A stretch of DNA of 64,000 nucleotides from Thermanaerosceptrum fracticalcis. Lineage in GTDB: Bacteria; Bacillota; Peptococcia; DRI-13. The DNA lies in NCBI RefSeq assembly GCF_000746025.2, contig NZ_CP045798.1:730501-794500 (forward strand), written 5' to 3'. The notes beneath the pieces are model-generated. The model was not told the DNA's origin. It ran no database searches and saw nothing but the letters and a program-made list of their open reading frames with translations. Of the stretch, positions 1,370 through 57,111 are shown one piece after another; positions within the stretch are counted from its first letter, which is position 1; each line of letters begins with the position of its first letter. A program made the position numbers and the translations under genes.

Positions 1370-3064
1370 ATGATACCACGTGAAAGAAAACGCTTGGGCG
1401 ACCTTTTGGTGGAAGCCAATGTCATAACCCGGGAACAATTGCAAAAAGCCCTGGAGATCCAAAGAAGCAGCGGCAAAAGATTGGGAACAGTGTTGATAGA
1501 AAATAACATTGCCACAGAAGAACAAATCATTACCACCCTGGAATTCCAGTTAGGGATTCCCCGTCTCTACCTGCACCGCCTGACTCCCGATAAAGCGTTG
1601 CTGGAGAAAACACCTGAATCACTGGTACGGAGACATAAGGTTTTTCCTGTGGGAGTACAGGGGGCCAAAGTGCTGGTGGCCATGAGCGATCCTTTAAACC
1701 TGGTAGCCATCCAGGACCTGGAACTGGCTTTGGGGTTAGAGGTGGAAGCGGGCATTGCCACAGAAAGGGAAATAGAACTTGCCATTCAGCGTTATTATGG
1801 TCTGCCTGAAGAACTGAAAAGTGCCTATGAGAGCAGCAAGACGGAAACAGTCAGTTTTTTTAATATTGACCAGGGCAGTACCAGCACAGATGACGCTCCG
1901 GTGATCAAAGCCGTTAATACTATTTTACAAACTGCGGTCAAAGAAGGGGCCAGTGATATTCACATTGAACCCCGGGAGCATGACCTCAGGGTAAGACTGC
2001 GGGTGGATGGGGTTTTGCGGGAAGCCATGACACTTTCTAAAAATATTCATCCCCCTATGATATCCCGGTTAAAGATTATGGCGGAAATGGACATTGCGGA
2101 AAAGCGTTTGCCCCAGGATGGACGCATTATGATTAAATATGGCACGAGAAATATTGATTTGCGGGTGTCATCCTTACCTTCTATCTTTGGGGAAAAAATA
2201 GTGATTCGTCTCTTAGATAAGGAGAATCAGTTCTTAAGCTTAGAACAATTAGGTTTCCGGCCCAAGCTCCTGGAAAAGTTCAAAAATGTTTTGGCTTCTC
2301 CTTATGGGATGATCCTTTTGACAGGCCCCACGGGAAGCGGGAAAACGACGACCCTCTATGCCTCCCTGGGCGAGATTAACCAGGTGGGCCGCAACATCGT
2401 TACCATCGAAGACCCGGTAGAATATATTTTACCGGGAATTATCCAGGTACAGACCAACGTTAAAGCCGGCCTGGATTTCGCTTCAGGCCTGCGCTCTATC
2501 TTACGCCAGGACCCCGACGTGATCATGGTAGGAGAGATAAGAGACAAAGAGACTGCCAGCATTGCCGTACGGGCTGCCACCACCGGACACCTGGTTTTCA
2601 GTACATTACATACCAATGATGCGGCAGGAGCCGTTACCAGGCTGGTGGATATGGAAGTAGAGCCATTTTTAGTGGCTTCCTCTGTTGTGGGTATTGTGGC
2701 CCAGAGACTGGTGAGGCGCAACTGTCCTTACTGCCGGGAAGAATATGACGTTCCCCCCGGGACCCAGGAACGCCTGTTTTTAAAAATACCCGATGAACAG
2801 CCTTTAAGGTTGAAACGTGGAAGGGGTTGTGCCCAGTGTGGTTTTACGGGTTATAAAGGACGGCTGGCGCTCCATGAGCTGCTGGTTGTTAATGCCGGGA
2901 TACAAGAACTGATACTGCGTAAGACTTCAGCGGAAAAAATTAAGGAACTGGCCATGGCCCAGGGAATGGAAGACCTCTATATGGATGGAGTGGAAAAGAT
3001 ACTGCAAGGCGCCACCACTGTTCAGGAGGTCTTACGGGTGGCCTACTGGGAAGAAGGGAGATAA
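1370..3064 (+). CDS. pilB: Type IV pilus extension ATPase PilB
   Basis: Hexameric cytoplasmic ATPase that drives pilin polymerisation. An N-terminal MshEN/T2SSE_N region (about residues 1-150) precedes the motor domain with Walker A GPTGSGKT (about 319-326), Walker B DPDVIMVGEIRD and the histidine box GHLVFSTLHTND. A tetracysteine zinc site (CPYC...CAQC, about 450-490) is diagnostic of PilB/GspE rather than PilT. The 564-residue length is typical. It opens a co-directional pilus locus and is separated by three bases from pilT. A GGAGGGAAGGAG ribosome binding region precedes the ATG. PilB/GspE share motifs; the pilT partner argues for PilB. Confidence 0.95.
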   Translation: MIPRERKRLGDLLVEANVITREQLQKALEIQRSSGKRLGTVLIENNIATEEQIITTLEFQLGIPRLYLHRLTPDKALLEKTPESLVRRHKVFPVGVQGAKVLVAMSDPLNLVAIQDLELALGLEVEAGIATEREIELAIQRYYGLPEELKSAYESSKTETVSFFNIDQGSTSTDDAPVIKAVNTILQTAVKEGASDIHIEPREHDLRVRLRVDGVLREAMTLSKNIHPPMISRLKIMAEMDIAEKRLPQDGRIMIKYGTRNIDLRVSSLPSIFGEKIVIRLLDKENQFLSLEQLGFRPKLLEKFKNVLASPYGMILLTGPTGSGKTTTLYASLGEINQVGRNIVTIEDPVEYILPGIIQVQTNVKAGLDFASGLRSILRQDPDVIMVGEIRDKETASIAVRAATTGHLVFSTLHTNDAAGAVTRLVDMEVEPFLVASSVVGIVAQRLVRRNCPYCREEYDVPPGTQERLFLKIPDEQPLRLKRGRGCAQCGFTGYKGRLALHELLVVNAGIQELILRKTSAEKIKELAMAQGMEDLYMDGVEKILQGATTVQEVLRVAYWEEGR

Positions 3065-54365: not shown

Positions 54366-54614
54366 ATGGTTTTAATTACGATAACCAGGTGGAAAAGAAA
54401 ACTTTTGGCCTTACTGGTATGTGTGTGTTTGTTAGTAGGCTTGGGACTGGGTTTGAACTGGTATTTGACTCCCAAGGATAATGCCACCGTAGCTCCTTCC
54501 GATAACCTGCAGAAGGATGTAACCACACAACCGGTAAAGGTACAAGGCCAACCAGCTAATTCCAACTCCCCGACTAAAAATGCTAATCCGGCTACCACAG
54601 TCCCCAAGAAGTAA
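54366..54614 (+). CDS. Small membrane-anchored protein with Pro/Asn/Thr-rich tail
   Basis: 82 residues, not recognised. A short basic start (MVLITITRWKRKL) leads into one membrane helix (LLALLVCVCLLVGLGLGLNW) and an extracytoplasmic low-complexity tail rich in Pro, Asn, Thr and Lys, without a lipobox. AAAGGAGGG (54351-54359) favours ATG 54366 over ATG 54360. It lies just before xerD. Could be a spore or envelope protein; no function can be assigned. Confidence 0.65.
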   Translation: MVLITITRWKRKLLALLVCVCLLVGLGLGLNWYLTPKDNATVAPSDNLQKDVTTQPVKVQGQPANSNSPTKNANPATTVPKK

Positions 54615-54681
54615 AGAGGAAATTACTCTCTTTTGTGGAAATGGTAATATATATTTTCTACAAAAGGGAGGCATTTCTTGC

Positions 54682-55569
54682 ATGGACAAGCTTTTGGCCG
54701 AATTTATAGAGTATCTTCAGGTGGAGAAAGGGCTTTCCCGCAATACACTGGACTCCTATAAAAGAGATGTGACCAAATTTCTCATGTACCTGCAAAATAC
54801 GAAAAAAGTAAAAATAGAGGAAATCGACAAAGATTTACTGGCTGGTTACGTTTTTTATCTTAAAAAAAGCACGTTCTCGCCGGCTACAGTAGCCAGGGGA
54901 ATTTCGTCTCTCAAAGGTTTTTTTCGCTTTTTATGCCTTGAGAAATACCTGGAGGCAGACCCCAGCATTCACTTGGATGCCCCCAAACTGACCGAGAAAC
55001 TGCCCAAGGTGTTGACGGTGGAAGAGGTAGACAAGCTTTTAGCGGGGCCCCGGGGTTCAGACCCGGGAAATTTAAGAGACAAGACCATGTTAGAAGTGAT
55101 GTATGCCACGGGCATGAGGGTTTCGGAGTTGACCGGTTTAGACCTCAATCATGTAGACGTTGATTTGGCCTTTGTACGCTGTGTCGGAAAAGGAAACAAA
55201 GAGAGGATTATTCCTATAGGTTCTTTGGCTGCCCACAGTCTTCAACAGTATCTAGAAAGAGCACGGCCCCTCCTGGTAAAAAAAACGGGAGAAAAAGCCC
55301 TGTTTCTCAATTATCACGGAAAGCGTATGACGAGGCAGAGCTTTTGGAAAATTATAAAGAAGTATGCTGTGGCAGTTGGCATCAATAAAGAAATTTCGCC
55401 CCATACCTTGCGGCATTCCTTTGCTACCCATCTCTTAATCAATGGGGCTGACCTAAGATCTGTCCAGGAATTACTGGGGCATGCCGATATCTCTACTACA
55501 CAGATTTACACCCACCTAACGAAAAGTAAGCTTAAAGAAGTATACAACAAAACTCATCCGCGGGCATAA
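54682..55569 (+). CDS. xerD: Tyrosine recombinase XerD
   Basis: 295 residues. N-terminal SAM-like domain (EFIEYLQVEKGLSRNTLDSY) and the catalytic domain with R (TGMRVSELTG), K, H-x-x-R (HTLRHSFATHLL), H (LLGHADISTTQIY) and nucleophile Tyr in QIYTHL. Resolves chromosome dimers at dif with XerC or alone. Its position before deoB is standard in Firmicutes, so it is the housekeeping enzyme, not an integrase. ATG 54682 with GGGAGG. Confidence 0.95.
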   Translation: MDKLLAEFIEYLQVEKGLSRNTLDSYKRDVTKFLMYLQNTKKVKIEEIDKDLLAGYVFYLKKSTFSPATVARGISSLKGFFRFLCLEKYLEADPSIHLDAPKLTEKLPKVLTVEEVDKLLAGPRGSDPGNLRDKTMLEVMYATGMRVSELTGLDLNHVDVDLAFVRCVGKGNKERIIPIGSLAAHSLQQYLERARPLLVKKTGEKALFLNYHGKRMTRQSFWKIIKKYAVAVGINKEISPHTLRHSFATHLLINGADLRSVQELLGHADISTTQIYTHLTKSKLKEVYNKTHPRA

Positions 55570-55595
55570 CCAGCAGAAGAAAGAAAATATTTATT

Positions 55596-55797
55596 AAGGT
55601 TTGCCACCACGTATCCCGATCTTCGCATAGAACAGACTAAGGCTCGTTTCGGGAAAAATCAGCCCACCCTCAACAGTCCATCCGTGGACTGGCTTCGGGT
55701 TGGGTCTGACCTCCTGTCAGCCCATCTGATTTTTCTACCTCACTTCGCCAAGTCTGTTTAGCTATGCTCCGATAGGGAACGTTTGTGGTAAAACCTT
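55596..55797. repeat. 202-bp branched palindromic element
   Basis: The ends AAGGTTT (55597 region) and AAAACCTT (55790-55797) and successive inner blocks pair in order: CGCATAG with CTATGCT, AACAGACT (55631-55638) with AGTCTGTTT (55751-55759), AAAAATCAG (55654-55662) with CTGATTTTT (55727-55735). Inside, two hairpins branch off: AGTCCA/TGGACT (55675-55690) with flanking CCCACCCTCAAC pairing to GGTTGGG, and CTGAC/GTCAG (55706-55720). The shape could be a MITE or a structured RNA. Confidence 0.65.
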
Positions 55798-55859
55798 CAT
55801 TCTGATTGATAATTTAGGATAGCTCCTAGTTACTAGTGGCTTTCAGCGGAATTCTGAAA

Positions 55860-55876
55860 TCGGAAGTCGGAAAGCG
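55860..55876 (+). repeat. Modular intergenic repeat, copy D (short)
   Basis: TCGGAAGTCGGAAAGCG here matches the last block of copies A, B and C (TCGGATATCGGAAAGCG and TCGGATGTCGGAAAGCG). Only this block is clear; the preceding TACTAGTGGCTTTCAGC may be a decayed remnant. Confidence 0.55.
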
Positions 55877-55926
55877 CAAAGGAGAAAAGGGGCGGGAATG
55901 TCCCCAACTTAAAGGAGGATAAGCAC

Positions 55927-57111
55927 ATGACAAAAACAATGTTGATCGTTATGGATAGTGTAGGTATCGGTGCTTTACCCGATGCCCATTTGTATGGCGA
56001 TGAGGGTAGTAATACCCTGGTACATATAGCGGAAGCCGTTAAAGGTTTAAAACTGCCGAATTTGGCCCGTTTAGGTTTAGGCAAAATCACGGACATACCG
56101 GGGGTACCGGGAGATGTTATGGCGTTAGGCGGGTATGGACGTATGGCCGAACTATCCAAAGGGAAAGACACCACCACAGGTCACTGGGAATTAAGCGGCA
56201 TCTTGACCCGCGACCCGATGCCAACCTTTCCCCAGGGATTTCCCCCCGAAATTATCACAGCCTTTGAAAAACTTATCAAGCGCAAAGTGTTGGGCAATAA
56301 AGTGGCTTCCGGTACCGAAATCATTAAAGAACTGGGCGAAGAGCACATGAGGACAGGATTTCCCATCGTTTATACCTCCGCGGACAGTGTGTTTCAAATC
56401 GCAGCCCATGAAGAAGTCATTCCTCTTCCTGAACTTTACGAGATGTGTAAAAAAGCAAGAAGCTTATTAACCGGTCCCTGGGCGGTAGGGCGGGTGATTG
56501 CCCGTCCCTTTGCAGGAAGACCGGGGGATTTTACCAGAACGGCGAACAGGCACGACTATTCCCTGTTGCCCCCTGAACCTACTGTTTTGGATGCCCTGAA
56601 AAGTAAAGGGGAAGAAGTTATCGCCGTAGGTAAAATATATGATATTTTTGCCGGGCAGGGCCTTACCCGGAGTTTCCCCACCAAGAGTAATAATGAGGGG
56701 ATGGAAAAAACCTTGGAACTGTGGGGACAGCTCAAAAGTGGTTTGATTTTCACCAATTTGGTTGAATTTGATGCTACCTACGGGCACCGTAATAACCCTG
56801 TGGGATATGCTAAAGCCCTGGAAGAGATGGATGCCCAGTTAAAGGATGTCATAGAGGCTGTAGCAGAGGACGGCTGGTTATTCATCACTGCGGACCACGG
56901 CAATGATCCTACCACTGCCAGTACAGACCACAGCCGGGAATATGTTCCCCTGCTGGTTTATGGTAAAGGGGTAAAAAGAGATGTAAATTTAGGGACGCGC
57001 AGAACATTTGCGGATGTAGCCGCCACCCTGTCAGAACTCTATCACCTGGATTATACCTGTGTGGGAGAGAGTTTTCTCCCTGAGCTTCTTCATGGCAATG
57101 AACAAAAATAA
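55927..57111 (+). CDS. deoB: Phosphopentomutase
   Basis: 394 residues of the alkaline phosphatase superfamily. Interconverts ribose/deoxyribose 1- and 5-phosphates in nucleoside salvage. Metal sites: [25 protein letters not shown] (with the phospho-threonine), [20 protein letters not shown] (shortened: ADHGNDPT) and the C-terminal [11 protein letters not shown]. It pairs with pdp 24 bases downstream. Confidence 0.97.

Follow-up and report, generated by a model that had tools for sequence, protein, structure and literature searches.

What is the long palindrome between xerD and deoB of Thermanaerosceptrum fracticalcis, and does it serve the genes on either side of it? The initial annotation of the window (the whole stretch of 64,000 nucleotides that was analysed) had offered two readings, a hairpin element of the MITE type or a structured RNA lying before nucleoside salvage genes, and had asked for an RNA fold, a covariance search and a DNA search of this genome and its relatives. 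These analyses were run and gave a stable fold, a match to the catalogued RNA family TwoAYGGAY (RF01731) and dispersed copies, respectively. From the results described below we conclude that the spacer probably carries a single copy of a mobile palindrome that is dispersed and MITE-like and belongs to the TwoAYGGAY family; the insertion of the window copy itself is a step that we infer from the behaviour of the family.

The identity of both neighbouring genes was supported by protein family matches (Table 1), and the palindrome indeed folds on itself from end to end. Its predicted RNA fold reached -85.1 kcal/mol compared to -51.7 +/- 4.6 kcal/mol for 200 dinucleotide shuffles, none of which was as good (z -7.3), the DNA fold gave a z of -7.7, and none of 632 stretches of the same length on the plus strand of the 64 kb was as stable. 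The nested outer blocks and the two inner hairpins lie at the positions originally described, and the extent of 202 bp holds for the palindrome, but the repeat unit, as judged by likeness to other copies, is wider. The element consists of an outer long imperfect inverted repeat and a core, which comprises two hairpins with loops of the GGA type in addition to a long stem and a conserved internal loop. Read on the minus strand, the loop of the second hairpin is ACGGAT, which fits AYGGAY, whereas that of the first is AGGAG, which keeps the GGA but not the full consensus; in other copies of the lineage of the window this first loop (AYGGAY/GGA) is lost. The inner stem shows a compensatory change to AAAAAGCAG/CTGCTTTTT in two other copies (L002 and L004; L numbers denote loci and G numbers genomes). 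The palindrome has no coding capacity.

Table 1 Features of the xerD-deoB region, with positions counted from the first nucleotide of the window unless a locus is named.
Feature	Position	Strand	Basis or remark
xerD, neighbour (listed ORF; conserved from 54676 on)	54580..55569	+	TIGR02225, 397 bits
Stretch in whose place relative L033 has 2 bp; exceeds the repeat unit	55570..55912		98.8% identical flanks
Repeat unit, as far as likeness to other copies goes	55578..55815		Alignment with five copies
End-to-end palindrome	55596..55797		RNA and DNA folds
RF01731 (TwoAYGGAY) match, full model 1-168	55618..55774	-	41.6 bits, E 1.2e-5 (cmscan)
Inner stem, left strand, AAAAATCAG	55654..55662	+	Pairs with 55726-55734
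Second TwoAYGGAY hairpin, AGTCC-ATCCGT-GGACT	55675..55690	-	Sequence, fold, cmscan alignment
First TwoAYGGAY hairpin	55706..55720	-	Sequence, fold, cmscan alignment
Inner stem, right strand, CTGATTTTT	55726..55734	+	Pairs with 55654-55662
Degenerate tandem arrays	~55825-55875 (window); L030 ~1380-1560; L032 ~1270-1560; L006 ~1390-1470		
deoB (phosphopentomutase), neighbour	55927..57111	+	TIGR01696, 486 bits

The initial annotation had recognised no known motif in the spacer, a statement that did not survive the comparison with Rfam. While a standard scan of the window at the gathering score returned no match, a relaxed threshold revealed a match to the full RF01731 model on the minus strand. 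This match misses the gathering score of 43 bits by 1.4 bits, and two sister copies exceed the cut-off (L002 with 45.7 bits, L015 with 43.8 bits). Two further matches from the relaxed scan, LINC00901 and ylbH, had E values of 9 and were discarded as chance. To guard against the possibility that two palindromes had matched by chance, we used a covariance model (R1) built from nine copies of the lineage of the window only, without any Rfam sequence. In other genomes, R1 recovered RF01731 loci with identical coordinates and strand (E 8e-33 to 1e-5), with 28 matches below E 1e-4 in 43 loci, the best of them L118 (126 bits, E 8e-33). Because of this recovery, we regard the common origin of the window copy and TwoAYGGAY as secure, although the window copy scores below the curated threshold. 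The window copy thus shares with TwoAYGGAY (RF01731; Weinberg et al. 2010, PMC2864571) the full-length minus-strand covariance match, the two hairpins on a common stem and the reciprocal recovery of members; it differs in its score and in its first loop, and some copies of its lineage differ by two extra hairpins or by the lack of the core.

Next, we considered the covariation in an alignment of 68 matches from 19 genomes, which was fitted to the model, so that the figures lean towards structure, albeit by a very large margin. Standard pairs occupied 90.8% of the cells compared to 61% in shuffles and 32-40% with slid partners, both sides had changed in 46 of the 48 pairs, and the covariation score was 0.689 compared to 0.055-0.091 for slid partners. 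Where the initial annotation had named a lack of homologues and of paired-base covariation as the outcome that would suggest chance or decay, we found the opposite, i.e. homologues and strong covariation. Among imperfect pairs, G-U outnumbered A-C by 105 to 43, or by 30 to 14 if each genome contributes one copy. This slightly favours folding of the RF01731 strand, which is the minus strand in the window. Our best overall reading is a MITE-like mobile palindrome whose folded core appears to be under selection.

A covarying structure with two GGA loops raises the question of CsrA. Gardner and Eldai proposed CsrA binding by TwoAYGGAY (PMC4333381), a proposal that is reflected in CL00106, the Csr/Rsm clan of Rfam (PMC5753348). 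According to this explanation, the element would act as a small RNA whose two hairpins sequester CsrA; its loops and stems resemble CsrA sites, CsrA is encoded in the genome of the window, and GGA is present in the loops of 53 and 61 of the 68 aligned copies, respectively. However, the distribution of the protein does not follow that of the element. CsrA was detected in 22 of 29 carriers and in 74 of 121 other genomes (no association, p 0.20), and the seven carriers in which it was undetected include G036 (96% complete, at least 17 matches listed) and G014 (94% complete, at least 12); incompleteness of metagenome-assembled genomes could explain single absences, but less easily all of them. Furthermore, the loops keep GGA in 26/26 and 25/26 aligned copies of the CsrA-less genomes G014, G020, G022, G033 and G036, whereas the first loop keeps it in only two of six copies in the CsrA-bearing genome of the window. 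To our knowledge, dozens of copies per genome would also be atypical of CsrA-sequestering regulators. We therefore consider the CsrA-sequestering small RNA unlikely; as a general function of TwoAYGGAY, the sponge is not supported by these comparative data, but CsrA may be bound in some hosts.

The copy numbers themselves point to dispersal. The genome of the window contains further full-length copies at 96, 95 and 85% identity, as well as a copy with extra arms, a short copy without the inner half and fragments. With the covariance model, five complete copies were found in this genome and four in the congener, i.e. the one other genome of the genus that was compared; the window unit is 94% identical to L016 over query positions 3-238 and 91% identical to L015 of the congener. 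Changes are modular, in that two more hairpins separate the outer stem from the inner one in L017 and L027, and L006 has no inner stem. RF01731 is carried by 29 of 150 relatives, several of them with at least 12 to 17 matches each among the up to 17 candidates scored per genome. Within genomes, the copies are very similar up to sharp ends, after which unrelated flanks follow, and the ends form inverted repeats (palindromes) in G000, G021, G033, G036 and G075. Between genomes the ends differ, which we count against a MITE reading, unlike what is expected of a MITE group served by one transposase. A longer element with the same ends and a transposase was not seen among the DNA matches in G000, G001, G075 and G150, and blastn searches of plasmid and phage collections returned no match.

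The part of the original proposal that did not hold is a role ahead of deoB; both the MITE-like palindrome and the structured RNA, in the form of a catalogued covarying family, hold in part. A cis-regulatory leader, terminator or 3' UTR stabiliser for the adjacent genes, here xerD or deoB, could account for the fact that most copies are intergenic: based on gene calls restricted to long open reading frames, only 12 of 113 copies overlap one of at least 100 codons. Likewise, relative to the RF01731 strand, the gene lying 3' of the copy runs antisense in 75 of 111 cases and sense in the other 36 (113 copies, p 3e-4; the strong bias seen in the first 35 loci weakened to this ratio), so that many copies lie just after a stop codon, and in the window the hairpin would be transcribed together with xerD. 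Yet the orientation is mixed overall and reversed in G089, the copies lie beside different genes with no constant position relative to a gene class, and no sigma-70-like promoter was found near the window copy. In addition, a near-identical relative retains xerD and deoB with 2 bp (L033) in place of the 343 bp of the window, and thus lacks the element between them. We therefore judge a cis-regulatory role to be improbable, and return to the mobile palindrome.

If copies were inserted, duplications of the target might be recognisable beyond their ends. Direct repeats of at least 8 nt were present in 26 of 126 copies compared to 59 of 894 mismatched left-right pairs (p 2e-6), using position-restricted flank windows that were chosen after the first results, since wide windows were diluted by the common flanks in G033, G072 and G101; the pairs are partly dependent, because copies within a genome are related. 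G075 and G150 show the signal, G021 and G089 show it in part, and it did not exceed chance in G036, G101, G006 and G014; the direct-repeat tests found no target duplication for the copies in the genome of the window. G075 and G150 belong to the same genus and harbor a sharply bounded unit of 266 bp, for which 28 and 50 matching places were counted, respectively, partial ones included. Here, the copies sit between two copies of one intrinsic-terminator hairpin, which is a different one at each locus (for example AACCGCCCCTGCCGAGGCGGTT on both flanks of L333), and the outer borders are usually marked by an A-run (left) and a T-run (right). The flanking 32-nt stretches form hairpins well above shuffles. 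A direct-repeat score of at least 10 was reached by 19 of 38 copies compared to 2.4% of mismatched pairs; the 19 copies of G075 that score worse may be decayed or inserted elsewhere. A duplicated palindrome could mimic an inverted repeat, but the loops are in direct orientation in L282, L283, L127 and L294. Finally, G150 contains a locus corresponding to the right flank of the L282 site that shows a single hairpin and no element, with strict orthology on the right side only, as the left neighbour gene differs.

Two sites at which close genomes differ in the presence of the element were dropped as clean proof of insertion. At the L002 site, G001 lacks 210 bp between CATT repeats and keeps a remnant resembling an element end; there and at L033 a deletion is equally possible, and neither site reveals the ancestral state. 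For the L003 site no matching site was found in G001.

Since the repeats in the genus of G075 and G150 are whole terminator hairpins, insertion there would duplicate an entire intrinsic terminator, and a terminator would be a safe place for it, given that each side of the element retains a hairpin. According to the mechanism we favour, copies would propagate at the DNA level. An enzyme acting in trans would move them by way of a wide staggered cut, and this machinery would recognise the folded core, in the form of RNA or of single-stranded DNA. The mover is most likely a transposase acting in trans.

Known hairpin-using routes, i.e. a Y1 (RAYT-type) transposase or a reverse transcriptase, would be in keeping with a hairpin structure that spans the whole element; Y1 proteins occur in 20 of 29 carriers and 58 of 121 other genomes (p 0.06), and a reverse transcriptase is present in some carriers including the genome of the window. 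However, a Y1 protein was undetected in the multi-copy genomes G006, G021 and G036, and RVT_1 is absent from G075 and G150, which have the most copies, and also from G006, G020, G021, G033 and G036. Because each is missing from several multi-copy genomes, neither is a general mover, and target duplications are not an expected product of Y1 transposition. Movement by either route is therefore very unlikely. None of CsrA, Y1 transposase and reverse transcriptase was supported as a necessary partner, each being missing from several carriers.

For the mobile palindrome, comparable repeats are known from other bacteria. In the Bacillus cereus group, bcr1 and similar MITE-like repeats (PMC2267715, PMC3446304) are also intergenic, non-coding, about 150-200 bp long, dispersed and folded, but their sequence and host range, by these descriptions, set them apart, and a target duplication comprising a whole hairpin is not among the bcr1-type features reported in the passages searched. 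BOX, RUP and SPRITE of the pneumococcus (reviewed in PMC10969869) are likewise mobile repeats, small and structured, that occur close to terminators or in clusters with other repeats; SPRITE is itself terminator-like, whereas the present element lies between two copies of a host terminator hairpin. REP elements with RAYT transposases (PMC3733652) are dispersed extragenic palindromes as well, but of 20-40 nt as opposed to about 200-270 nt, and the present element also occurs in genomes in which no Y1 protein was detected. Searches of the literature for MITEs that target terminators yielded nothing directly relevant, and the open main texts naming TwoAYGGAY or RF01731 gave no description of mobility or terminator insertion in the parts searched.

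As a wider and more tentative proposal, which we hold to be possible rather than probable, TwoAYGGAY could be a class of structured nucleic acids that is mobile and widespread in Bacillota. The folded core, as opposed to the ends, would define this class, and its insertion machinery would be able to recognise intrinsic-terminator hairpins and duplicate them whole. If this is true, what Rfam lists as a candidate for cis-regulation or CsrA binding would be a mobile element that seeks out terminators, by an insertion reaction absent from the literature searched. A catalogued, unexplained family would thereby gain a testable identity as a mobile palindrome, the published CsrA-sponge proposal is weakened by the comparative data, and the data point to insertion by a reaction in which the terminator hairpin is duplicated in full. 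With dozens of copies in each genome and one element-free site, the genus of G075 and G150 represents a natural system for finding the enzyme.

Some additional features of individual copies and their surroundings were observed. The extra-hairpin variant, with about 58 nt added, is found at L017:1384-1642, L027:47-306, L021:1386-1642 and L022:1509-1765, and one such copy is common to both genomes of the genus of the window (L022 and L021). In the same genus, degenerate tandem arrays of 7-8 bp (TTACTAGTTACTAGTTCTTAG; CGGTTAACGGTTTACGG; CGGATATCGGAAATCGG) adjoin TwoAYGGAY copies in intergenic spacers (Table 1). In G101 (L197-L203), a flanking module (AGGGTGGGTGGGGT..GCTGCAAAACC) lies to the left of some copies and, reverse-complemented, to the right of others, as would be expected if the element or its core were able to invert. 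Five loci of G033 (L147, L149, L151, L152 and L154) have a common left flank (CTCCTTTAACGCACCGC..), which looks like another intergenic repeat and suggests that small repeats are nested at these sites.
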